A stretch of DNA of 64,000 bases from Larus michahellis (lineage: Eukaryota; Chordata; Aves; Charadriiformes; Laridae): NCBI RefSeq assembly GCF_964199755.1, contig NC_133896.1, positions 94,860,200 to 94,924,199 of the forward strand, read 5' to 3'. A program made the translations under genes and the position numbers. Of the stretch, positions 3,545 to 38,763 are shown in pieces; position 1 is the stretch's first letter; every line of letters begins with the position of its first letter. The notes beneath the pieces are model-generated. The model worked only from the letters and a program-made list of their open reading frames with translations, had not been told where the DNA came from and ran no database searches.

Positions 3545-6500
3545 TTAAGAAAATGGGGGAACGTACCCAATGTCCACAGTGATGTTGGTATAAAGAGGAT
3601 GCTTTGTCCTGGAAAGGAGCTTGAACTCTAATGAATTCATTCCATCATCCTTCCATGTTTTTCTGGTGTCATGTCGGGAAGCAGACCTGAAGAAGGAAGA
3701 ACACCTGCAGTTAGATAGAACAAAGGTGATGTTTGCAGCTGAAGCTGCAGAAGAAACAGACTTCCAGAGGGGACAAGGGCTTAGCAGGTGGAAGCTGCTA
3801 GCAGAAAAGCCCTGAGAAAATTCTTTTCACGTAATACAGACTAAAGGTATTTTGTAAGACTAAACAGATTAGAATAAGTTCACACTGAGTATTCTAAACA
3901 AGGAGGACAATTTGGACTGGAACCTCATCAGCCAGGGAGACCAGAGAGGTGGCAACTACAGTCTGCAAAGAACCAGGAAACTCGCAGCAGCTTAGAGAGA
4001 CCTTGGAGTGCAACACAAAGCTTGCAGCAATGGTGTACATAGGCTGCTGTAGGTAGGTTTTAAGACAGCGTTGTTATGGAAACCTGAGTTTTGACATGAC
4101 GGGGAAGTCTGCACTGTGAGAAGCCTCCACCACACTTGACCCAACACCCTCCTCCAGCTCTTTTATATAAAACTGGGTCTTTGCTAAGGTCTCCCATAGC
4201 ACCTTTCTCATGTCTTCAGACTAGTATGCTGCTTTCCACTATTTTAATGGCACACTGTAAATCCACACAGACTGAAGAGCAAGTTTTTATTACAGGGAAG
4301 TTGTAACAAAGCGCCTCTTTGAACTGAACTCTCCCTATTTACAACACAGGCAGTATTTTTTTTTTTAAGTTTTATTTCCTGAATAATTTTGATGCTTAAA
4401 GTCTGATAGGTGTTAGCTTCCTTGCTAGTACATGCCCTTAACAATAGGAAAGAAGGAGGAAACTAGGAGAAACCCTTCAAATGCAGCGACAGGAGCAAAA
4501 TGATTCAGTTAAAACTGACTGGGAGGCTTCTTTAAATAGCCACATTAAAGCATAAAAACAAGCAGTGGCATTAGGTGTAGTTACTGCCTGTTCTGAGGAA
4601 GATGACGGTAACAGTCAACCTGCCACAAGCCAAAGAGTAGCCTGCGGCCCCCCCAGAACAATTACCTTCTCCAAGGCTCTTGTGTCTCTGTCTCTGCATT
4701 GTAGTCCATTACTTTGTAGCGTCCAAGGTGAGGTGATGTCCGGACTATTTTCATTCCTGCTAACTGAATCCTTTAAAACAACAAATAAAATCTTTGCTTA
4801 GACACAAAGATGATGTTTCTAGGCTTAGTTATAGGGAAGTTCAAAGTCAGAGATGACTTTTCAGTGTTAATGCAATCAAAGCAAAATGCAGAAGCTGAAA
4901 GAGTGAGTTTAACACCACAGTGCCATGTTATTTTCTCTATCAGGTTCTAACCAGGCTTGGGCTAGAAAAGCTCCCAGCTGCAGTGCACTTTGACAGGGTA
5001 CAAAGAGGATTATAGCAAGCAGGGAATGAACAGCAGCATACAGAGCCTTCAAGAGCCATTCCCACTAATCTGACGATTGAGCATTATTTTCACTTCCTTG
5101 TAAGAGCAGAGCTTTTACTGCCTAGAGGTCCATCACCTAAATTTAAAAAAAAAAATACCAACACCCAAACTTGCAGTTTCTGAAAGGAAGCCAGTCCTGA
5201 GTTTCAGATACAGATTAAGCCTCTCTCTGTTCTTTGAGAAGTGCCATTCACTCAGATGGCCTGATTAGAGGACTGGCTTCATAAAAGATTAGTGATAAAC
5301 ACAGGCACCAGACAAACAAGTGTGAGCTGCTCAGCTGCAGGCCAGTTAGATAAGAAAAAAAGTGAACCAAAGGCTCAGAATTCCATAACAGAGCTCCTAA
5401 AAACAGCATTTTGGGTGACTTTCAAGCAATGCATTGCTGATGGTGGCATCTACATTAGTTTACCAATAAAAAATGCCTGTAACTGGGCTAGAAAACATCT
5501 GTTATTGCAGGGCAGCTCTTATGCAGAGAAAATTCCTGTGAATGTAAGAATGAATGTTAGCTCAATTGAGGTTATCTAACCGGCACGTTGGCAACATTTG
5601 ATTGCCTTCTGTTGAGATCTGGTACAGCAGCAAGCTGCGCTTAAGCTGGAATGTTATAAAGCTGAAAGAGGCTACAGAATTGAAAATATTTGTTAGTCTA
5701 GAGCCATCAACTGATTACAATACTTCATTGACAGTACGACATACTATTATTTCAGACTGAGTTTTAGATGAGGTTTCTTGTTTTCTAAACATAAGCTTAT
5801 TGCACATTCAATCAAAAAGACAAGCAAAAGCAAGAACACCAAACTAGCTTTGCTGTTACACTTTTTGCATGGCAAGATTAAACTAAAACCATAATCTGGA
5901 GCAGTTAATACATTCATTTACTGTTAAGAAGAACCCAACAGACTTCCCTGTAGTTGATAATGTTAACACATAAGCGGGTCCAATTAGAGTAGCATTTTCT
6001 TCTAACAAAAGGTGGATCCTGCTGTTTGCTAGGACTGTTTGCTAGTAGACTACTGCAGTCAGCCAACTATAAGTAGCCGTCAGCATGTTTTTCCCCACTA
6101 ACTCTGTTTTAATAAGTAGTATCCCCTTTACACAGGACCGGTTTGGTTTTTTTGACATGACAATGTCTAATTTCAAATACTAATTTATTTTGTTACTACA
6201 CAGTAAGAAGTGCTTGAGCACCTCCTAAAATCCAAGTCCCGGTAGGTGCACCAAGCTGGCCATTCAAAACCAGACAGCTGATTCATAACTTTCGCACTTT
6301 GACACTTCAGTATATGACTAAATCATTAACAGGCACTGTCCATGGCCTCCATGTTCCTGTGGGTCAGAACATTGCTAATCATTAGTATAAGTTTTCAGAG
6401 AAACAACATATCATTTGCTTCCCTTCAACAAAGGGCTATTTTGGGATCTATATAACCTACTTGTCTTAAGAGATTTCTGTAAGGAAGTGCACTCTTATGC

Positions 6501-9500
6501 ATAACTGGCGTGACTCTCCACCACTGGTACTGAAAACCACATTAGATGCTTAAGCTCTACTAAGAACAGCTGAATAGACCCAGCATTGTAGTATTTGATT
6601 TAAAGATCTATTTTCCTGGCATTCTATTCCTTTAGTAAATGCTGGCACTCTAAACAATCATACACCCTTTCAGTTAGCTTTCTCTGAAAGGAAAAGGAGG
6701 AATTCTATGTTAGAAAACCTGACTTTCAATTCCCAGAAGAATACTGCTTTGTAAAAACTCCTGCAGTCCTTGCACAGAAGATTCCACTGAAACCATGTAA
6801 CTTGTCACACTGTGCAAGACCAAAAAGCCACACAAGGCCTTGATTGTCAGTTTAGTTTTATAAACTCCATGAGCTTGCCTCAGTGCAGGATGATGAAGAT
6901 GCACAGTGCAACTACAAAGCTGAATAAAAAAAGCCACAGCCATGATTTTGTACTTGAAGAATTCGCATTAGGCAGAGTACCTGGAACTAAACTCATTGTA
7001 TTGACTTCTATAGCATGCTGCTGCCATGGCAACTAAAGTACAAGAAAAAACATCAGCTCTTGCTGTCACTGACTCACAGTAATACATAGGCTTCTCCATC
7101 ACCCAGCATTGAAGATGTTAGAACGCCTTGTGTTCCTTAATTCCAAGTATTGGTGATTAGATAATACTCAGAGCAACCTATATGCCCAACATAACTTAAA
7201 TTCCCAACCGTCTGAGAATTAAGAAGTACCTTCTTGGTTTTCTTATTTGTCAAGCTTGCAGATTCATTCCTTCCCTTGGGGCAGGTCATGTCAATGGAGT
7301 CACTTGTCAACTACTGATGGTTATAACCCCTTGGACACACTCCAGAGCGACTGAAGGCACAAGGATGTAAAGTAACATTCCACCCTCCAGAGTCTGAGGA
7401 GAGCTTTGTCCTCCCAGCACACAATGATTAGATTCATAGATTCTGAGTATTTTCTGATATTAACCATTCCCAATGCCAACAGCATTTTGCATTATAACGA
7501 CAGTGCAAGCATATTAAGGAACAACATCTTGGTTCCTTTCGCAGGGTAATGCTACATGTTTCACTAGCCAGCCTGGTTCTATTTTAAGCCTGTCCTGTGC
7601 ATTAATACCTTGTAGCGATGTCATCATTTTCACCACCACTGCCCCAGTATGTATTTGGAAACCCATTCATCTTCATGTAATGTTCTGGAGTCAGAGCAGA
7701 TACACCTCCAAAAAAGGACTTATATGGCAGACTAAAAGATAAAGAAAAAAACCCAAAGAATCAATATTGAAGGATAATACCAGTCCTCCACAAATTAATA
7801 GTGTGATCCAAATCACGCATGTATTTATTAATCACGTACCTTACAGATACTGTCATGACAAAGCCAAAACCAAAAATAGCAAAACCAGGGTAATTCCTAT
7901 TATGCACCATTTCTCCTCCCCTCACCTCAGCAGACCAAAGTAAAGCTGGTTTTAAAATTCACATTTTGGGTTAGTTCAAAATAACCTGCATCCTATCACA
8001 CATCTTCCACATGATTCAGTAATTCCCACCCTATACTTTTATTCTGGAAGGAAAGGCATACAGAAATCTGCCAGACATTTGCCAAGCTGAGCTAACAGTG
8101 GAAGAGGGAACTGCAGGCAAAGAACTGTTCAAGATTGCATGCTTGGGTCAAGAAAACCCTTTTCTGGGGAAGTCACTACTGCAAACTAACAAACAGAAAA
8201 CCTCTTAAAGGCTGTATCTTTCACTGTCCCCGTTCATACTTTCTATGCAAAAAGTGAACCAATTAGGATACATACATGTACATGGAGGCACTTACGTGTA
8301 CTGAAACTTATCCATGGCACTAGCCATATGCTTGGGATAGTATTCATCGCAAACATAGAGATTATAATCATTCTCAGGTACCAGGTCCACATCGTGCAGG
8401 ACAAGGCAGTCCCAGTCTTCATCCTTCAGGGCTTCCCGGACACCAACATTAAGCAGCTTTGCTCGATTAAAGGTACCATTCCCCACCTGGAAAAGAAAAC
8501 CTACATTTCTTCACCAAAACAACAAAAAGGATATCTCAATTCAAATTTATGTTAGTAAAAAAGCCTTATTCAATCAAACGACACCAGAACGAATCAATAC
8601 TGGCTGCAAATTTCATGCCCTAGACTCTGAAAATTTCATCTGCTCCCTTCACAATATTCTCAGCAGTTGTAAGCTTTGCCGTGTCAGGGGCTATATACCG
8701 TGAGCACCTGAAGAAGGCTGACTTTTAAGAGACCAGTAAGTCAATCCTCAGGTGTCCATCTGCACATCAACACTTTTGCCCCAACTACTGCTTAATAAGT
8801 ATAGAAACGAGAAAACAGATCTTGGTCAAACAAAAACTTCATCTGCCTCCCAATCAACTATCAGTTTTAATTAACGAATCCAAAACTTGCTCACTCACCA
8901 CTGATCTTTTGCAACACCAGTACAGGTCAGTTAAAAATGGCTGTTTGACCTGTAGAGGTTGCCCCACAGCAGGGTCAAGCCAGATGTTTTTATTTGATAC
9001 AGACTAAAAAATACCCAACTTCACTTTAGCATTTAGTCTCAACAGTTTTGCTCAGCTACAGACAAACCACCTTCTTGAACAGCTGAAAAGACAAGTTACC
9101 ACTTAATGACTACTTTATCCCCCTAGAAGAAAAAAAAAAAAGCATAACAGATGAATAGTAGAATTATGATCTTGACAAGTGGTATGATATTTCAATCATT
9201 AGCAGCCATGGACATGGGACAGCATATAACTGACCAGCTCTAGACCCATGCATGAAATGGTACTTCCACATCAGAAGATTCACATTTCTTGTTCAGAACC
9301 TAACTCTTAACTGTGAAGCTCAGCTACACCACCAGGCACATCTGGTTTAGATTTACCTGCTGTATCAAGTAGATACTGTAACTGAGCTGCTGACGCTGCA
9401 AGAAAGGATGAATATAGTAAAGAAGATGGTGAAGGTACTTCTCCTGGTTCCTGTATGCTACAAGGATGGCTGATTTGTAGCGGGCCAAGCAGTGAGGTGG

Positions 9501-12500
9501 CCTGTAGAGGCCACCAGACTGAACAAAAGGATTTTTTTTGATGATCATTCTTTCACTAGGGAGCAACTTGAAGGTGATGGTTAATGGACCAACTGTAAGG
9601 AGAGACAGAAAAAAGAAAAGATCAGTGATGTTTCTCAACCTTCGTTCAAGCCTATGAGGTTAGCTATGTATGTTTACTACTTGAGACACCAGCCCTACCA
9701 CAGAACAGTTAACAACGCCACGCAGGTGTGCCCACAATGACTTCCACTACTGCCTGCTGGTCATCTCCCCACCAAGGGGTGCCAGGCTCAGCACCAGGCC
9801 GCCAGGCAACCTCTCAGAGGCATCCCGAGTCCCGGCACAGCCAGCAAACGTCATCGGGCTCCTGCACAGCTTGCTTTTTCCTGGTATTTGTCTCCCTACT
9901 ACACAAGCAGACCTTCTGTCTTTTGTTGCTTAGATGGGATCCTTGAATAAATGTATTCACTGTAAGAACAGCATTGAAAATGAATCAAGATAAGCAGACA
10001 TATCTGCTTTTGCTACCTGTATGGAAAAAGTCTCTAAGCCTCTTTCAGAGGAGATTCAAGGACAAAGATCTCCAAAAGGATATTCAGCAGGTTGGGGCAG
10101 AAATAGTTTAAAGCCTGGATGAATACAAATGCTTTAGGAAATGTTAGCTTTATCTTACAAAAAGTTTCGAGTTCAATTTGATATTATAATCACATGCCAC
10201 AAGGGCTGTATTTGCTATATTATTTAATTAGTGATAAGCAGGCAGTACTTCAAAATTCTGGGATAAGCAGACAACAGAACTGAAAAGAAAGATGGGAGAT
10301 GTTACATTTTTGTGAACAGGCACAGGGTAGCAAAAGAAACTACATATGATACTTCCTCTATTCAATACCTCGATTTTAAATGCAAAACATACTGGATATA
10401 TTTACAGCTTTTACTTAACTAAAAAAATATTTTGCGTTTTTATCTGAATTCTTGCATTCTTCAGATGGAAAAAGCTTGACAAGTAAGTAAGAAAGAATCA
10501 ATATAAAATGTCAATCACCATTTTGACACATCTCATATTGTAACAATATGAGCAAACAAATTCTACAATTATTTAAATGCCTGTCCTTCTGGGTAGCGAG
10601 AAAAGTTTCCAGAACTAGCAGAAGTCATGTTTATACAGAAATTAGTGTATCTTAGTGGTTTCCAACCACTGTCAATTTCTAAGAAAATAAAATACACATG
10701 CTGAATAAGATTAAAATCCATTATTTAAATGAACTAGGAAGACACCTTCACCTAAATCAATTCAAAGGTGACCATTTCAAATGACAGTTAAGTAGGACCA
10801 ACAATTTTCTGCAGGCCATTCTATCCAAAGACAAAATATTTTTTTGCACCAGAAGCCTACGAGACAAGTTGTTAGGATTTTGTTTTTTAAAAAGCTGTAA
10901 ATAAGATTTTCTTTTCCTTCCATAGTTAATCCTATGGCAGTCTTAAAGCAAGTTTTCAGAATCTTGTAAGTCAGACTCCCACTGAAATAAAATATTCTCT
11001 CAAAAAACTTCTGATAATGAAGCCTGAGAGAGAAAGAGCAAATACTTAGGCCTGGTGTTTAGTAGCTTTTGAACAATGAAAGGTACGGGTGTGTCTTAAG
11101 TTCTTAAATCTAATTTAAAATCTAATAAAGTATTTAAGCAGGTGAGTCCATAAAGTACTTCTTCCAGCCCATCCTACATTCAAGTCTCTGCTACGATTCT
11201 AACCAAAAAAAAAAAAAAAGTTCACCCACATCCTGTTTAACTGACACTAGAAGGAGGCAACATTCCTCCACTGTTTTTTTTTTTCGGGGGGAGGGGGGGT
11301 GTTTGGTTTTCTTTTTTGTTTTTTTGTTCTGTTTTGTTTTGGGTTTTTTTGTTGTTTTGTTTTTGTTTTGTTTTTTTTTTTTTTTGAGCACTAACAAGGC
11401 TTAGGGACTAAATTTGGCATAAGATTCAAGCTGTTCACTCAGAGCTGGGTAACATTTTGCTAGTATGTGGAAGTTGGTATACCTCACATTTCTGATGGAC
11501 AAACCTATACTCGACAAGTGTCTCCTTTTCCTTTTCAAAGAACACACATAATGGCATTTCCTGAAGGTTGGTCTGAACAGCCACTGATCCCATTCCTCAC
11601 ACTGTCAGAAAGGTCTAGCCACTGTGAATCCCACTTCATGGGTTTTGTTGGTTGGATTTTGTTTGTTTTTAAAAGGAAAACTTGAATTTTGCTTGTCAGC
11701 AAGTTCGTGAAATAGCTCACTCAAGTATCACTTCCCAGTCCTTCCCCAAGTATCTAAAATGCAGGGGGAATTTGATTTTGACTGTGTTACCCTCAGTAGG
11801 AAACTGGAGTACATCGCCACACCTTTGTACCTGAAACAGAAGAGCAGTTCATCAGAGAATCATGCTGTGGGCCCATGAATCTAGGTCACATTCATTGTTA
11901 AGATTTTATTATGTTACTACCTACTTCTACGCAGACGGTTTCCTGTTCTGCCTTAAAGACCACCACATTTCAGTGCAACATTAGTTTTAACCTGTAATTT
12001 ATGCTGCTTTTTAGATTTATGAACTCTCTGATTATCAGATCTTTTAACTAAAGCACCATTAACCACTGATTTGATAACAACTGGAGCTTGTTAAAGAAGT
12101 GTTATATTCAGATTGGATTTCAACTTCAGATCATTGCTCCAAAGAAAAAATATAAGAAAGGGAATTAATCGCTTTGTTCTCCCACAAAGGCAGGGTTTTG
12201 TTTTCTATAATACAATCAGGGCTCTTTGTATTGAAGAGTAAGATTCTGTAGCAATAATCCTTAAATTCCAAAAAAATCAAATCTAAATTTGAATATAAGG
12301 GTTTGAGTAAGATAATGTGCAATAGTTTTACTCTCGTCGTCTCCTCCCATACCCAAACCTGCATTTTTCAGGTTTTTCAAGACATCGTGTTCTCAGAAAC
12401 TGCCTGGCTCCATACCTCAAACAACTCAGCTCAGAAACTCCATCGAGTATACGCCAAGGAAAGACAGAAAAAAGAAGTTAGTTTGAGACTTACATCCCCA

Positions 12501-15500
12501 AAACCTCTGGCTGCCCTATTCTCCTTGGCTACAAGCTAAATTCTGGCTCTCCTTCCTGTCCAACAAAAGGCTAATACACTGCAATCCAATTAAATCCCAG
12601 AGGTGAACAGTGCAGTTGCAGATTGGACCAAACAGGGAAAATTAAAAAACTGATAAAGCACAGCTTTGGGAAAAGAGGACAAACGTATCTTAGGCATGCT
12701 AAAAAGCACAGGATCCCAATTCAGACAAGATACAGAATCAACACCCTGAAGTGCCTAAGCAATTTCTCCGTGGCCTGGTTCCTAAGCTCTTTCTGTGCCT
12801 GTACCATCACATGGAGGGCGTTCGATTAACATGAAACTTTAGTGTGTAGAGTTAAAACTCGCAATTCCCCATCTGTATTGTTAGCTGGTGCCAGTGACAA
12901 CACGCTCCCTGCTTGCTTTCCTTTCTAGGCCACACATTTGACTATCAGGGGGATCTATTGATTTTGACCAGATCTGTCCCATCTTAAGAAAGAAACTGTA
13001 TGACTTCTAAACTCCTTGCTGCACATTTAGAGTTAGCATCTATAATTACTGAGTTCAACCACAATAAGCAGAATTTACACAAGCTAAACACATAGGAACA
13101 GCAGCATGGATGAATATCTCACTAAGAAAGTGCACCACCACTCACTACATCAATAGAGTCGTATTTGTATAATTCTACCATCATTTGAATGCAGGAAAAA
13201 AAAAAAAGGCAGACCAATAGCCTTAACTTAAGCACCAGTTTCTAATGACAGAATACAAGGCTGCCCCAACTGCAGCTGAAAATAAATCTCAACATTACCA
13301 TCTTTTTGCTTCTCTTTAAATCCAAGAGAAGAAACTCTAGTAGGAGAGCATTGATTAGGAAATGCAGCAGGAGCTGCTCACTGCCACAGCAGATGGTCAC
13401 ACTCATGAAAAGGTTATGACAGATGGGACTGAAAGGGAGAAACTACTATAAGAAGGGCTTGGAAAAAAATTCATCCATCGCATGAGCATATTTAAAAAAA
13501 GCAGTTACAGACAGAACTTTCAACTATTAAAGTCCTCAACGGCCAAACCAACTTCTTCAGCACATACCATGCGTGAAATAAGGTACCTCTTTAAAAAAAA
13601 GAAAAAAACAAACAAGAGTTTGCTGAGTCTTCTAGCATCGAGCTTCCTCCTGGTAAGAGGGAAAGATGAACCAAAACAAACAACACACCTTGCATGCAAT
13701 GTGAGAAAGTCAGATTCTCAATTTAAATGCACAACTCTAGCATATAAACGCTTTGCTTTTTCCAAAAAAGCAAAGGAGGAAGAAACAAGCAACTGATTAT
13801 TTGTGTAGAAAGTTCAACCTCTAAGGGAACACAATTTATTCACAATATTAATGAAGACACTGAATATCTAGTACAATGCTTTTCAAGCTGTCAGTCACAA
13901 AAGGTTCAATGGACACCACTAGGCATTAAAAAAGTAGCATTAGTCAGTGAGAGCCTAGTTCCTCCAAGGCAGAGATGTTTAGCAATTTTACTTTAATTCA
14001 CAGCCCTGGAAGAAACAAGATGCTGTAGATTCAGGAGGTAAGAAAAAGGTGGATGAGCTGCAAGCTGATCTTACATTCAAACAGTTACTGAAATGATCTA
14101 CTATAAGTGGAAAAAGTGCTGCACTTCATAAATGCCCTGATGCAGAAACCATTTAAGCCATTTGGCGTTCTTCCAGTTACTTTAACATGCTTTGGAGTAG
14201 ACACAGTGACTTATTACCAGCTCTGAACTGGAGACTGGAGTCCTCAAGAATTGATTTGAAATCCTATTTAATGGAGTTTATGAAATTAATACTAAAAGGC
14301 ACCACTCTCTCTGATATAATGCTTACAAGAGAGATCAGTCCCAGAAGAGAACATACCAACCAACCAAGACATTTATGAAGTATTTCTAGATCTATTCGTA
14401 CGTGCCTGTGACATACAAAACAAAGGGCAAATACCTTACAGAGCAGCATGCATTTCTCAGGGGGTGTGGGGAGAACAACACCCAGAAGAGGTGGTTTTGC
14501 CTCAGATTTTTGGTTTCTGTCTGTAACATTCTGTTTTCACTTTAGCTTTGAAGTACCACATGCAGGCCCAGCCCCTCTGTTCTCAGCACTCTCGGGGATG
14601 GGCAGAAGAAGAAGTGTTATTAAGATTTCACAGCTCTAAGAGCATTGATTTCTTTATTATAATTTTACTCTGTCTGTCTCCTCCATATACGTCACTACTC
14701 TTGCTTATCTGATGTTCTGCAGGCAAGCTGCACAGAACTGCATCTGGTTTTGTTTGGTTTTCTTTTTTTTTCTTTTTTTTTTTGATCAAAGCTTTCTCAT
14801 TTGACTTTTCAGGACAGCGGATTCTCATCAGTAGTGGAGACAAGTAGGGTGCAGGCATGTTTCTGCTGTGCTTTTTCAAATAAAACAATTAAGTTGGAAA
14901 CACAGAAGGTCAAAATTGTGCAGGTAACAAAATACAATCGTTGGCACATTTTATATAGGACTGCCAAGAAAAAAGAAAAAAAGTTACTTGATATTAACAC
15001 CATGCACCATTTTTACTCTTGTTCTACAATCTCTATGTAGCCAAATCCTTAATATCAGAAGTTTTTAGATCAGAAAAATACTTTTCCTTGCATAAAAAAT
15101 ACAAGTGAGTTAATTGACACAAGAAAGTTTTGTCAGTTCAAGTATTACATCACTATAACACTTTTAAAGTGGAAAAGTTTGAAAAATATACAACTTACAT
15201 TTACAAAGCATCCTGCGTTACCACATACCAAAGCAGTTATTTCAAATACTACTGGCTTATACCTACCAAATATTGGTGACTGCACTGAGCAGTATGGCAT
15301 AGCCTCTTCATTAGGAGCTTGGGTAAACAAGCTGAGGTTTGTATACACATCATGAGTTTTTGAGTAATCCAGAATGGGACGTGAGTCTAAAAACCCACGG
15401 AACACATTTGAAGGTCCACCTCGGTAGAGTATCAGGATAAATATTGCTTGGAAGACAAACAGAAACAGCAGGAAACAAGGATTTTCCACACGAGAGAGGG

Positions 15501-15504
15501 ACAT
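3545..15504 (-). CDS. B4GALT3-like protein, probable pseudoenzyme
   Basis: Six coding exons read in frame: 15504-15267, 9592-9357, 8486-8296, 7731-7609, 4770-4666 and 3686-3545, giving 344 residues. Exons 2, 4 and 5 (236, 123, 105 bp) match the B4GALT gene plan and all introns are GT..AG. The Met at 15504 is preferred because it lies exactly nine residues before the Pro-Cys of the anchor, as in B4GALT3; an ATG eight codons upstream (15528) has a poor context. A transmembrane anchor spans residues 11-27. Cysteines 72/114 and 185/204 and the DVD motif (190-192) are kept, and residues 160-178 (GNGTFNRAKLLNVGVREAL) match B4GALT3. Against B4GALT1, active-site positions differ: Pro187 to Ala125, Arg191 to Gln129, Tyr289 to Phe228, Trp314 to Ser253, Asp318 to Asn257, Met344 to Val283, His347 to Tyr286. 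I infer loss or change of galactosyltransfer. No stop or frameshift is seen, so it is not a decayed copy. Orthology to B4GALT3 itself is unsettled. Confidence 0.92.
9593..15266 (-). other. Intron 1 of the B4GALT3-like gene
   Basis: This 5.7-kb intron lies between the anchor exon and the exon opening the catalytic domain. The donor is G|GTAGGT at 15267/15266 and the acceptor is CTCCTTACAG at 9593. It holds T-rich low-complexity tracts and no exon I can support. Confidence 0.85.
11270..11385. repeat. T/G-rich low-complexity tract
   Basis: Runs of T broken by single or double G, largely TTTTG and TTTTTG units, follow a G-rich core near 11286-11299. On the minus strand this reads as A-rich sequence inside intron 1. 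It looks like an expanded simple repeat or retroposon tail. Confidence 0.8.
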
Positions 15505-16068
15505 AGCTTTTAGCCCATGCTCTGGCATGAGACGGGTGAGGAGTTTTAACCGCCTTCCGCGAGCTGCCGTGCTACCTTCAAGGCTAGATCGCTGGGCAGG
15601 GAAAACCTCCTCCTCCTCTTCTTCAAACTTTCCGAGGCGGCAGCCTGCTCTTCTAGCACGGCTTCGCCGGGACGCTCGGAGCCACACCGCCCTTTCCCGC
15701 TACCAGCCGGCCTGAAGAAGAGAAAAACCTGTTTCAAACACACCCGGGGCAGAAGAGCCGCGGGGGCTGCGGCACCCGAGCCCGGCAGCCAGCACCACGG
15801 CGCGGGGAGCGGCGGTGGCCCTCACCCACCCTCACGCCGGCCCCCGCGGCACAGCCTGCCTGAGGCGGAAGCAACCGCGGGGCCGGGCGGCTCCAGGAGA
15901 GGCCGGCGGGGCAGGGAGCAAGCTCCCCTGTAACCCTCCCACAGAGGCTCCCGGCCTTCCCCTGCTCCGCCCCGGCCCGGGCTGAGGGAGGGAGGGAGCG
16001 AGCGCCCTCACGGCACGGCCGTTACCGCCCAACCGTCACGCAACGGCCGCCCGCCACCTTCTGGCGAG

Positions 16069-16087
16069 ACTACAGCTCCCAGCATGC
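16069..16087 (+). promoter_or_regulatory. ZNF143/THAP11-type promoter motif, copy 1
   Basis: The 19-mer ACTACAGCTCCCAGCATGC closely fits the ACTACAAYTCCCAGMATGC motif (SBS) bound by ZNF143 and THAP11 with HCFC1 at vertebrate CpG-island promoters. It lies in the island upstream of the B4GALT3-like gene. Confidence 0.8.
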
Positions 16088-16131: not shown

Positions 16132-16150
16132 GCATGCTGGGGGATGTAGT
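16132..16150 (-). promoter_or_regulatory. ZNF143/THAP11-type promoter motif, copy 2, inverted
   Basis: Read on the minus strand this is ACTACATCCCCCAGCATGC, a second good match to the ZNF143 motif, inverted relative to the first and 44 bases away. Facing copies of this motif are often seen at bidirectional promoters. Confidence 0.75.
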
Positions 16151-27114: not shown

Positions 27115-30100
27115 TTACACCTCTACTCTGGGGTCTGTAAATCCGCGCTTGCCTTCGTTAACCAGAGTGGGCCTCTCAGTTCTTGTGTGCCAGACCAACA
27201 CCTAGAGGGAATCACAAAGAGTTCAGGGGCTCTGGATGCCATGGAAACACTGAGAGCAGCGCATCCTTCAGGGGGAAACCTCAGCAACCCGGGGCTTGCA
27301 GCTGTTTGAAGCATGTGATTCGAAGGGGTTGAACCTGGGAGACGCTTCACAGGACCATGAAACAGTGACAAGGAGGAGGGATCATTCTGGACCGAAGCCC
27401 CAGGCTCAACCCTCTGCCGGTTCTCCTGGATTTTGGAGAAGCACACTGTGCAAATTTTATGGCTGAGGCTCTTTATTAACACAGTTACAGTGCATAGCAC
27501 TAGCCGTTCCTCAGTGTTCTCTGAGCTTCCCATCTCTGATGCACTTGCCAGGCTCTGCCCGTCTGTCCCAGTACTGTTCGGCACCGACATGCACCAGCAC
27601 AGGGCAGGCACAGTGGAAAGTGGAGGAACATGGCAGGAGACTGCAAAAGCAGCCAGGACCCAGTAAGGAGAATGCATCTCCAAGGTCTTTTGTACTTACT
27701 CACCTTTGTGCAGTTGGCTGCTTTGGGCTCCAGGCCATCCATAGTCACTAGATCCTTCAGCAGACTGGTTTCCTGGTAGCCTCCTTTAACTCCCTCCAGC
27801 TTGAAACTGGCCTGAGGCTTCTCCAAAATCAGCTTGATGCTGATAGCAAATCCAGCCATGTCAATAGCAAAGGGCCGGTTAGGGTCAAAGACGGTTTTCC
27901 AGCCCACCACCTTCCCTGCTGGGCTCACTTTTGGGGATTCATATCGCAGTCCCCCAACAAAAGCCACCGGCCAGACTGACACCCTCCTTGTGTAGCGCAT
28001 CTGTGTGCCAGAAAGAAACGGTGCTGTGAAAATTCAACCCCGCGAGGTTTGTCCCAGCCCATTAGTGTACCCATCCTCTGCTTTCATTGGCACCTGTCCT
28101 CCCCCGTTGACTTCCCACACAATCGCACAGCTCTCGGCAGCACAAGCTCTTGTTCACCTGTGCTGTTCCTTGAAGAGCTACAGCTTGCAAAGCTGCAAGG
28201 GTGTTTCAGCACGTCCTCTGAACACCAAACTCACTGCTTTTCTGTGCCCACGTTCAGTCCCTCAGAAGAAGGAAAATCTTCGGCTTTCTGATCTCATCTG
28301 AACTTTTATCATTTTTTGTAAAATTTTCTCAGTAAATGCCAAACACAACTTCTGCAAGGCCTCTAGCTCCGTATTATCAACTCCACTCACTCCAACTTCA
28401 CCCTCATGCAAGTAATCTCCCTCCCTGACTGATGCATCTTTGTCCTCATTTATTGCAAATTCCCACTACCGTTGTTCTTCCGTCCATGGCTACTGCCTAA
28501 AAGAGCACTGTTTTATTGAAACTGTCAGAAAGGACCTGGAAAGAAATAAGAAAGGATGAGCTTAACAGAGACCTAAACAATTCTGAAAACTGGAAATGTG
28601 TTCTGATGCGTAACTCTGTATTTCAAGTGGTGTAGTACAGTTTGGCTTAAATTGGTGACAAGGGAGTTTACTGAATAATCATTTTTTGCAAATTTACAAT
28701 AGACTTGGCATCTCACAAAAGCCAGGTTTCCAGCAGAGGTCTGGGCAAGCTTCTGTGATCCCAGGGGCACAGCCCTGTTGTGGTGGCTGGAACTCGGAGT
28801 ACAGAAGGGCAGCCAAGAGAAAAGGTGAACTAGAAAGTCAGTCAACTTTTCTAATATTCCCTACCCATCACACCTCTGCAACAGTGCAGATCTATGCTTA
28901 CCCGAAGTTTGTCTTCAGTGCTTGTTTAAATCAGGTCAGCTCTCCCTGAGGAGAGGTACAAATTCCAGACTATATATCCTCTGGTCCCTGGCAAAAGGGG
29001 CTCCAGCTGGTGCAATGTTGTGTGAGTGGCAGTTTGCATCTGCAGCCTACACCATGATGGCTGTGAGCGTGTCTTGTGAGCATGGCTACTGGGTTTGCAT
29101 AACCGTGGGTTTGCATCTGCCCTATAGTCAGCTCCCACTGAGTGCAAGGCGGGCAAGGAGATCTCTAGGCAGCATGCTAGAGCCCTTGCCTCCCAGCTCG
29201 TGCTAAATGTCCACATGCTAGTCCTATCTTAGAGGTCTTTGCAAGTGCATCTGGCCTTAAGAGGCATTACGGCTGTATCCTGCTTTTCTGTCCCATGTAA
29301 TTTTGCGGCTCTTACCTCTTCAAAGAGCTCCAGGCTGTAGGTGTTATCATCATCAGCAAAATACACTACCCCTTCTGGTGGTGCTGTGTTGCTGAAGCTG
29401 TCCCTCAGCCAATGCAGCCCCAGGTTCCTCTGTAGTGTCCCCCTTGGGGTGTGGGATGGGATCCAGGACAGTCCCAGCTTCAAACTCTTGGGTGTCTCCA
29501 CATTGAGGTGGGTGAAGTTGAGCCCTGCCTTCTCCAGCAGGTTGGATACCAGGTTGGTCCTCCGGGGCGAGTCCTCCACCACCACCCAGTGCAGGTTCTG
29601 TACGTGTAGGAAGGTGTTGGCCAGACGGGTCAGCTCAGCTTTTTGGACTGGCCGGGTGTAGGTAGGGGTGATAACAAAGATGGTTGGCAGGGTGTCTGAC
29701 CATGGGGGAGGCCTGGAATACACATAATTCTGGATGACTTTAGGCGTTGCCCCTATGCTTTGCTGCTGCCGAATGCATGATGGGAGGCCTTCTTCTCTCA
29801 GTGCAGATGTACCATTGAGAAGAACTTTAGAGGTCACGTTCTCATCTGTCTCTTCTGGGACAAAAGGAAGGAAGGAAGAAGAAGAAGAAGATACATGTTA
29901 GAGAACTAATCACTGCCAGGCTGCCTCCTCTCCAGGGAGTGTCTGGGGACACATCTATCTGGAGCTGGTGCTCAGCACATCAGCATCCTCTCCCCAAAGC
30001 CAGCCTAAGGTGCATGTTTAAAGCCCTCCTAAGAACAGTTTGTGTGCTTGCTGTAGGCAAACCCCGAGGAGGCCTTCAGGCCAGTTTGTCTTTGTTTAAC

Positions 30101-37500: not shown

Positions 37501-38374
37501 AGGGGGATGCTTTATACAGGGCTTTGTTCCCCAGTTAAAAAAAGGCAAAAAAAAAGGCAAAAAAACCCCAACAGAAAACAAAAAAAAACGTTGACGAAGC
37601 TAATTAAATCTGCTGGCTAGGTCCCGCGGGAGCCAATACTTTTGAGACAGCGCGTGGCTCAGCCTGCTATCCCCAGGTAGATCAAGGGTATCCAGGCACT
37701 ATCTGGGCTATCAGCAGGAACATAGATAACCCAGTTCAGATATAGACTAGACCTTGAACTTGGCTGCAAAGCCCAGCTATGCAGGAAGCCTTCCGGAGCC
37801 TGCAAAAGGAGGTCTAAACCAGGCTATTTTTAGTCAGCCCAGACCCAAACGTCCTTCGTGATCGACCCATGCGACCTGTCACCGCCCTCCTGATCCCCTG
37901 AGGTTTGGCGAGGGTGGGCTGTGACTCAGAGGGACACAGCCCTCCGCCCCGTCCCAATTTCTCTGCATCTGCACTGCAGAGCCATAATCCAGGGGTGCCA
38001 GAAATACCCAGAAGAAGATTGGCAGCTCAGGCCCAAACAGAAGCAGGAGGTACCAGATGTCTCCTGAGAAAGCCAGCTCTCTCCTGAGAGACCTCTCCGC
38101 TTGGAATTATCCTCTCTTGAAAGGGAAGTCGGGGGCTTATTCAAACGTCGACTTCTCTCCCCTGCTGCCGAGCTCTGGCAGAACCGAGGTCCTTTTTAGG
38201 TGCTGATGACTATTACAGAATAATCATTCCAAACATATCAGCGTGAATCAGCCCAATATCTGCATTATCCAAAAAAAAAAAAGCTTTCTTTTTTTCCGAG
38301 GAGGCAAAATAATTCTAAGGAAGCAAAAACAATACCGGATTGTTCCAAAGTATCTGTACATTTCATCCAGAGCT

Positions 38375-38763
38375 TTCCCTACTGAGTTAACAGCTGATGC
38401 CTGTTCAGCGGGAGTGGGAGCTGTCATTTTGCAGGTTTCTTACAAAAGCAGAAAGGAAAAACCCATAGTATTTGCTTCCAGAACATTTTCAAAGATGGAG
38501 AGGAATTACTTTTTCAGAGAAAAAGGCATTAGGCATTATTTGATGGATAATTACACTTCACAGGTGCTTGTTTAGGGGGAAAAAAAAAAAATCACGTTGA
38601 TCACAAGCTCCTTGTAAAGATATGGGGCCCAAAGGCCAATTCTGTTCCTCTGGTAGCAGCCAGGATGCAGAGACAGGCTTTGATCTTAGCTATGTGTCAA
38701 TATGACATCAAATGCAGACCTCCAGAGGAACATACTATCACTAATGCACACTCTCGATTGATT
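38375..38763 (+). pseudogene. Ty3/gypsy polymerase relic (RNase H region)
   Basis: The first part, to about 38570, reads TADACSAGVGAVILQ, then EKPIVFASRTFSKMERNY, the RNase H region of Ty3/gypsy reverse transcriptases. After a stop at 38573-38575 and an A-run at 38580-38592, homology resumes in another frame with DHKLLVKIWGPK, AARMQRQALILA, QYDIK and NAHSRL, the connection subdomain that normally ends in NADALSRL. So at least one stop and one frameshift break it, and about 18 residues before the DHK motif are missing. Reverse transcriptase upstream is not recognisable; a faint integrase-like stretch may follow near 39050-39120. It cannot make active enzyme. A longer open stretch starts at 38243 but its first 40 codons match nothing. 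Confidence 0.85.

Follow-up and report, generated by a model that had tools for sequence, protein, structure and literature searches.

Helper proteins for active enzymes have precedents in several families. Cosmc (C1GALT1C1) is a conserved non-catalytic member serving an active relative, and GnT1IP-L (MGAT4D) is said to be without transferase activity of its own. Published work reports that GnT1IP-L inhibits MGAT1 (PMC4572887), that Fam20A is a pseudokinase activator of Fam20C (PMC5865150), and that CHPF and CHPF2, chondroitin polymerase subunits with a glycosyltransferase family 7 (GT7) domain, have degraded catalytic sites and mainly stabilise the active CHSY1 and CHSY3 (PMC12748766). Here we describe a gene of the beta-1,4-galactosyltransferase (B4GALT) family, enzymes which cap a large share of animal glycans, in 64,000 nucleotides of Larus michahellis DNA (contig NC_133896.1, positions 94,860,200 to 94,924,199 of the forward strand), hereafter called the window. 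Our reading, which we hold with good though not full confidence, is that the gene and its orthologues in reptiles and birds (the sauropsid B4GALT3-like or 3L proteins) encode a conserved Golgi type II pseudo-galactosyltransferase which probably serves an active glycosyltransferase as its partner or regulator; the Golgi location and the lack of activity are both presumed. Sauropsid 3L resembles CHPF and CHPF2 in the degraded site and would resemble Cosmc and Fam20A in being a conserved non-catalytic member, but CHPF and CHPF2 come from a different subfamily, have two domains plus an additional middle one, and have a known partner, GnT1IP-L belongs to another glycosyltransferase family and has its partner and expression shown by experiment, and Cosmc and Fam20A come from unrelated families with known mechanisms. 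No account of sauropsid 3L as a pseudoenzyme was found among the papers listed in searches of open-licence PubMed Central.

The gene lies on the minus strand within 3545..15504. Its six coding exons join, with GT-AG at 5/5 introns, into an intact coding sequence (CDS) of 1035 nt for a B4GALT protein of 344 residues, as an earlier note on this DNA had claimed, and neither a broken frame nor a broken splice site marks it as a pseudogene. Exon 1 (15267..15504, residues 1-79) encodes the cytosolic tail, the transmembrane anchor and the stem; exon 2 (9357..9592, residues 80-158) holds A125 and Q129; exon 3 (8296..8486, residues 159-221) holds the DVD motif at 190-192 together with Cys185 and Cys204; exon 4 (7609..7731, 123 nt, residues 222-262) holds F228 and the sequence WGSGGENDD with S253 and N257; exon 5 (4666..4770, residues 263-297) holds V283, Y286 and the beginning of the lid loop; and exon 6 (3545..3686, residues 298-344 and the stop codon) encodes the conserved C-terminal fold. 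The seven substituted residues A125, Q129, F228, S253, N257, V283 and Y286 are indeed found where the note had placed them, and in an alignment with human B4GALT1 they correspond, in bovine numbers, to P187, R191, Y289, W314, D318, M344 and H347. It was also right that both cysteine pairs (Cys72/114 and Cys185/204), the DVD motif and the C-terminus are retained. Two of the substitutions, W314 (TGG to AGT) and M344 (ATG to GTA), required more than one base change each. Exon 4, and with it the former catalytic loop, is left out in frame from isoforms predicted for Accipiter, Gymnogyps, Geospiza, Vidua and Phasianus (P0013, P0014 and P0020-P0022).

An upstream in-frame ATG at 15528 would add eight residues, and the Rissa tridactyla model P0018 also has eight before the same methionine; this model is identical to the window protein across both stretches that they have in common, except for the altered junctions of the P0018 isoform. 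Both GT7 Pfam domains score above their cut-offs (PF13733 with 183.7 bits, PF02709 with 82.1 bits), and B4GALT1 structures are the closest solved relatives; a more distant fold match is to one chain of the CHSY3-CHPF complex, over a residue range that fits CHSY3. The GT-A fold of the B4GALT family is predicted to be intact in the sauropsid protein, and residues 9-27 of the Falco orthologue form a helix in its AlphaFold model, where a type II membrane protein would have its anchor; we take this topology to apply to the window protein. In the lid, the acceptor helix is interrupted in the Falco model but runs unbroken in that of Xenopus, an observation that was set aside since confidence is low there.

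To place the gene, the best 120 of 1137 matches to the window protein and the best 120 of 2911 matches to its Xenopus orthologue were taken from protein database searches, together 156 different proteins. The tree was made from 80 rows selected from these, the window protein and human B4GALT1; B4GALT2 and B4GALT4 lie outside the sample, and the odd fused model P0082 of Tetraodon, which fell outside both clades, was removed before the counts. The 3L clade has 54 rows including the window (support 100/100). Within it the sauropsids form a clade of 26 rows (100/100), namely 12 birds (counting the window and P0007), two turtles, one gharial, the tuatara and ten squamates, and the remaining 28 rows are amphibians, cartilaginous fishes, gar, bowfin and bichir. 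A B4GALT3 clade of 22 rows (98/95) adjoins 3L, and its birds, reptiles and platypus keep a canonical site. Two shark rows counted with B4GALT3 branch before both clades (89/63), and in a quick tree all 24 form one group. The sauropsid group also holds, at 100 in the Shimodaira-Hasegawa-like approximate likelihood ratio test, in a quick tree from which the Trp loop, the lid and six pocket columns were left out. By sequence, then, we have here the sauropsid orthologue of 3L. This paralogue is old within vertebrates, and its closest relative in the sample is B4GALT3, a statement valid for the rows in the tree and for the order among the matches listed. No mammal was found in 3L among the matches listed; a divergent or short relic may fall below them.

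Eight catalytic residues were scored (R191, D252, D254, W314, E317, D318, M344 and H347). B4GALT3 and canonical 3L are the paralogue and the orthologues with the same family, fold, domains, cysteines and anchor as sauropsid 3L, and they retain all eight residues in 24/24 and in 28/28 selected rows, respectively, whereas the 26 sauropsid rows retain two to five (five in 4 rows, four in 7, three in 12 and two in 3). Catalytic residues are thus lost throughout sauropsid 3L, the clade-wide loss that marks a pseudo-glycosyltransferase. The Trp loop has been described as strictly conserved in B4GALT1-7 (PMC6198961), but W314 is absent from 26/26 sauropsid rows, where seven residues stand in for it (D in 8, R in 6, S in 5, H in 4, and T, A and K in one each). 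H347 is lost in 25/26, the gecko Euleptes retaining it, and Y289 is replaced by F in 25/26. The loss of W314, and nearly also that of H347 and the change Y289F, are what sauropsid 3L proteins have in common. The other positions are less uniform: D318 is still D in 11/26 rows, with N, T, H, A or a gap in the rest, and its loss goes beyond the birds (Varanus, Sceloporus, Elgaria and Euleptes, with a gap in Gavialis); M344 is still M in 10/26 and R191 still R in 6/26; and D252 is N in 9/26 and D254 N in 4/26, both being D in the window. The four disulfide cysteines are present in 26/26.

Among the best 120 of 1137 matches there are 50 sauropsid 3L proteins, 25 of which make up the 26 rows together with the window; the other 25 are partial or alternative models, in 19 of which the Trp loop can be read, always without W314 (0/19), while six show no residue at that position. 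W314 is present in 70/70 of the remaining proteins among the 120, which are 3L from outside the sauropsids and B4GALT3 from sauropsids and others. The earlier note had held that the canonical WGWGGEDDD and Met/His pair in relatives would point to decay or to a local artefact. The motif is present outside the sauropsids, but the artefact explanation falls because the change is clade-wide and old, and the open frames argue against ongoing decay.

The WGSGGENDD of the window lacks both the W314 and the D318 of the WGWGGEDDD of an active enzyme, and of the metal ligands D254 is retained while M344 and H347 have become V and Y. Phe228, listed earlier among the altered residues, was dropped as a sign of inactivity, since the change Y289F is reported to be without effect on B4GALT1 activity (PMC6198961), and a Polypterus protein of the canonical clade has Phe too. 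The otherwise canonical 3L of Ambystoma (P0057) has Ser at the same position.

The note had left the choice between a selected pseudoenzyme and an enzyme with a new donor or no need for metal, and had suggested looking at whether Ser253, Asn257, Val283 and Tyr286 are fixed. The whole set recurs in the Falco protein P0001, representative of a 90%-identity cluster with 287 members (the residues compared being those of the representative), but none of the four is fixed across the sauropsid clade, and the residues in the window look like one snapshot of a drifting site. A redesigned and fixed active site was therefore rejected; the variable replacements of W314 suggest lost catalysis. The case for a still-active transferase that uses a different donor or acceptor, or that needs no metal, could draw on residues kept in sauropsid rows (E317 in 23/26, D319 in 24/26, R228 in 25/26, F226 in 26/26 and R359 in 25/26), on the predicted intact fold, and on the fact that metal-free inverting enzymes exist. 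We nevertheless regard such an enzyme as very improbable. Residues that serve a new catalytic function should have become fixed, and this pocket is unfixed, with seven residues at W314, five residues (D, N, T, H and A) or a gap at D318, D252 and D254 partly N and a variable lid; moreover, D318 and D320 are reported as essential in B4GALT1 (PMC4202792). The new donor or metal independence is unsupported because the active-site replacements differ between species, and the selected pseudoenzyme is supported by losses of Trp314 and other catalytic residues common to 26/26 sauropsid rows, an open frame and a conserved scaffold.

The distribution of changes along the protein was compared between sauropsid and canonical 3L by parsimony counts on the tree, with p values that treat changes as independent and with region borders drawn after viewing the alignment; the Trp loop and the lid were picked since the literature names both. 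The Trp loop (residues 251-261) has 36 changes in sauropsids versus 5 in canonical 3L, a ratio of 7.2 against 0.68 outside (chi-square p 2.8e-9), which only 2/334 blocks of equal length match. In the lid (282-306) the ratio is 1.19 versus 0.65 (p 1.3e-6). The opposite is found in the tail and transmembrane segment (1-29), with 60 versus 182 changes (ratio 0.33 versus 0.76, p 5.5e-8; none of the 316 blocks has a lower ratio), and in the C-terminal fold (307-338; ratio 0.42 versus 0.74, p 0.0004, 9/313 blocks as low); these two regions are more conserved in sauropsids than in canonical 3L. The stem shows no difference (p 0.6). There are 88 columns that are invariant in canonical 3L, B4GALT3 and B4GALT1, and 11/17 of the ligand-contact columns are changed in at least three sauropsid rows versus 15/71 of the others (Fisher p 0.0009), several of the changed non-contact columns being pocket neighbours (G313, G315, R189) or lid residues. 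Ten sites carry a residue that is near-fixed among sauropsids but seldom seen in canonical 3L; five of these sites lie within the first 29 residues (binomial p 0.0007), although at two of these five most B4GALT3 rows carry the sauropsid residue, so that the direction of change is ambiguous.

A pocket that has lost catalysis might still bind a sugar or uridine diphosphate (UDP), in which case the protein would be a lectin-like or nucleotide-sugar-binding pseudoenzyme that acts as a glycan sensor or chaperone and not as a partner of another protein. The retention of F226 in 26/26, Y286 in 23/26, F280 (as F or L) in 26/26 and R359 in 25/26 fits such a role, but the ligand-contacting W314 is changed, the hydrophobic residue at the position of I363 is changed in 23/26 and no row has F at the position of F360. 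Erosion is alike at the acceptor and the donor site, a preferentially kept acceptor site having been looked for and not found, and we consider this alternative improbable.

The window protein is 91% identical to that of emu over the whole query, while the CDS of the window drifting free of selection would fall to 67% identity and acquire 5.3 stops at 0.2 substitutions per site; we take the neutral distance between such birds to be at least this large. At the protein level the comparison is in keeping with retention by purifying selection. Path lengths for 3L relative to B4GALT3, several of which use different species of the same group for the two genes (e.g. Falco and Theristicus, Chelonoidis and Natator), give ratios that rise from bird-turtle (1.3-1.6) through galliform-neoavian (1.7), bird-crocodilian (1.9) and elapid-bird (2.1) to lizard-turtle (2.7). 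For canonical 3L the same ratio is 1.6 for Xenopus-Bombina, 1.8 for Spea-Xenopus, 2.1 for Ambystoma-Xenopus and 1.4 for shark-Xenopus. The sequences suggest a site that was lost without a clear overall speed-up of the protein, except perhaps in lizards. These figures bear on slow decay towards a pseudogene, for which the lost catalytic residues and the sauropsid excess of 1.3-2.7, highest for lizard-turtle, could be taken as signs. The amphibian pairs with canonical 3L show a like excess (1.6-2.1), however; full-length proteins are annotated in birds, turtles, gharial, tuatara and squamates; conservation of the tail, the transmembrane segment and the C-terminal fold exceeds that seen in canonical 3L; and neutral drift would have produced stops. 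Decay seems to us hardly probable at all.

The pseudo-galactosyltransferase that we favour could have arisen as follows. Catalysis would have been lost once, on the stem branch to living reptiles and birds, most likely beginning with Trp314, whose loss is common to all rows. The Trp loop and the lid, the parts which close over the substrates, would have drifted afterwards, while conservation persisted in the membrane anchor, in both disulfides and in the GT-A core and the C-terminal fold. A single loss on the sauropsid stem, at least some 280 million years ago, is the simplest interpretation of the sequences because lepidosaurs share the loss with archosaurs and turtles; two parallel losses are possible. 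The luminal domain and the anchor would then pair with an active Golgi glycosyltransferase, the first candidate being a B4GALT such as the canonical B4GALT3, and the pairing would stabilise, retain or inhibit the active enzyme as CHPF does for CHSY and GnT1IP-L for MGAT1. B4GALT4, named in the earlier note, is a possible partner. This role is proposed, by analogy, because helper members have precedents and Golgi transferases form homomers and heteromers (PMC6198961); we put it forward tentatively, as a suggestion with somewhat less than an even chance. The residues equivalent to the salt bridge of the B4GALT1 dimer are retained (E313 in 23/26, R330 in 25/26), which is a hint at pairing with an active transferase.

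Several observations weigh against our interpretation. D318, M344, D252, D254 and E317 survive in many non-avian rows, and to judge from the residues weak activity may persist there; four of these rows (two turtles, tuatara and Podarcis) keep five of the eight. The lizard-turtle ratio of 2.7 exceeds the amphibian range. The lid is not extreme, since 30/320 blocks of the same length reach its ratio, and this region is variable in canonical 3L too. Retention is 0.59 at the acceptor site and 0.60 at the donor site, so that neither ligand site is singled out by its conservation. Of the B4GALT1 dimer interface, the portion in the lid is lost (the equivalent of I359 is kept in 3/26, F356 in 0/26 and A360 in 1/26), the equivalents of F356 and A360 varying in canonical 3L as well, and V322 varies in sauropsid rows. 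Finally, skipping of exon 4 was rejected as a sauropsid novelty because it is also found in the frog Rhinoderma (P0122), which belongs to the canonical clade.

A more speculative extension, to which we give about one chance in three, is that a pseudo-B4GALT became fixed in the reptile-bird ancestor, was apparently lost in mammals, and turned into an obligate Golgi protein, restricted to sauropsids, that regulates beta-1,4-galactosylation or some other transferase and in which the newly constrained anchor and not the pocket carries the function. If the Trp loop has drifted across reptile and bird history with the rest kept, sauropsid 3L would be a natural separation of structural from catalytic function, and one which can be tested in chicken cells.

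Users of annotation should be cautious with the label 'beta-1,4-galactosyltransferase 3(-like)', under which 3L is in some species presented as if it were the B4GALT3 enzyme. Database names are inconsistent: 3L is called B4GALT3 in Serinus, Gavialis and Bombina, and the eel and conger rows labelled '3-like' group with B4GALT3 (P0004, P0017, P0043, P0135, P0141). The Strix model P0026 has PF00078, which we take to be reverse transcriptase, inside its 3L protein, probably a retroelement taken into the model.

Upstream of exon 1 there is a promoter candidate with two facing ACTACAnnTCCCAGCATGC motifs, at 16069-16087 (plus strand, no mismatch) and 16132-16150 (minus strand, one mismatch). These are the 2 matches at no more than two mismatches, and none occurred in 100 shuffles; we take the motif to be a ZNF143/THAP11-type site, and the pair is perhaps a housekeeping-like, two-way promoter. 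About 14 kb from the 3L gene, at 29229-29897 on the minus strand, lies a glucuronosyltransferase exon (PF03360) with B3GAT1 as its best match (182 bits versus 141 for B3GAT2). Human B3GAT1 (11q25), B4GALT3 (1q23) and B4GALT4 (3q13) presumably belong to one paralogon, in which case 3L would be an ohnologue that mammals have lost. In the window, no Rfam family scored as high as its gathering threshold. At 38210-38575 (plus strand) lies a retroelement fragment, an open frame that encodes an RNase H-like reverse transcriptase domain (PF17919, PF17917).
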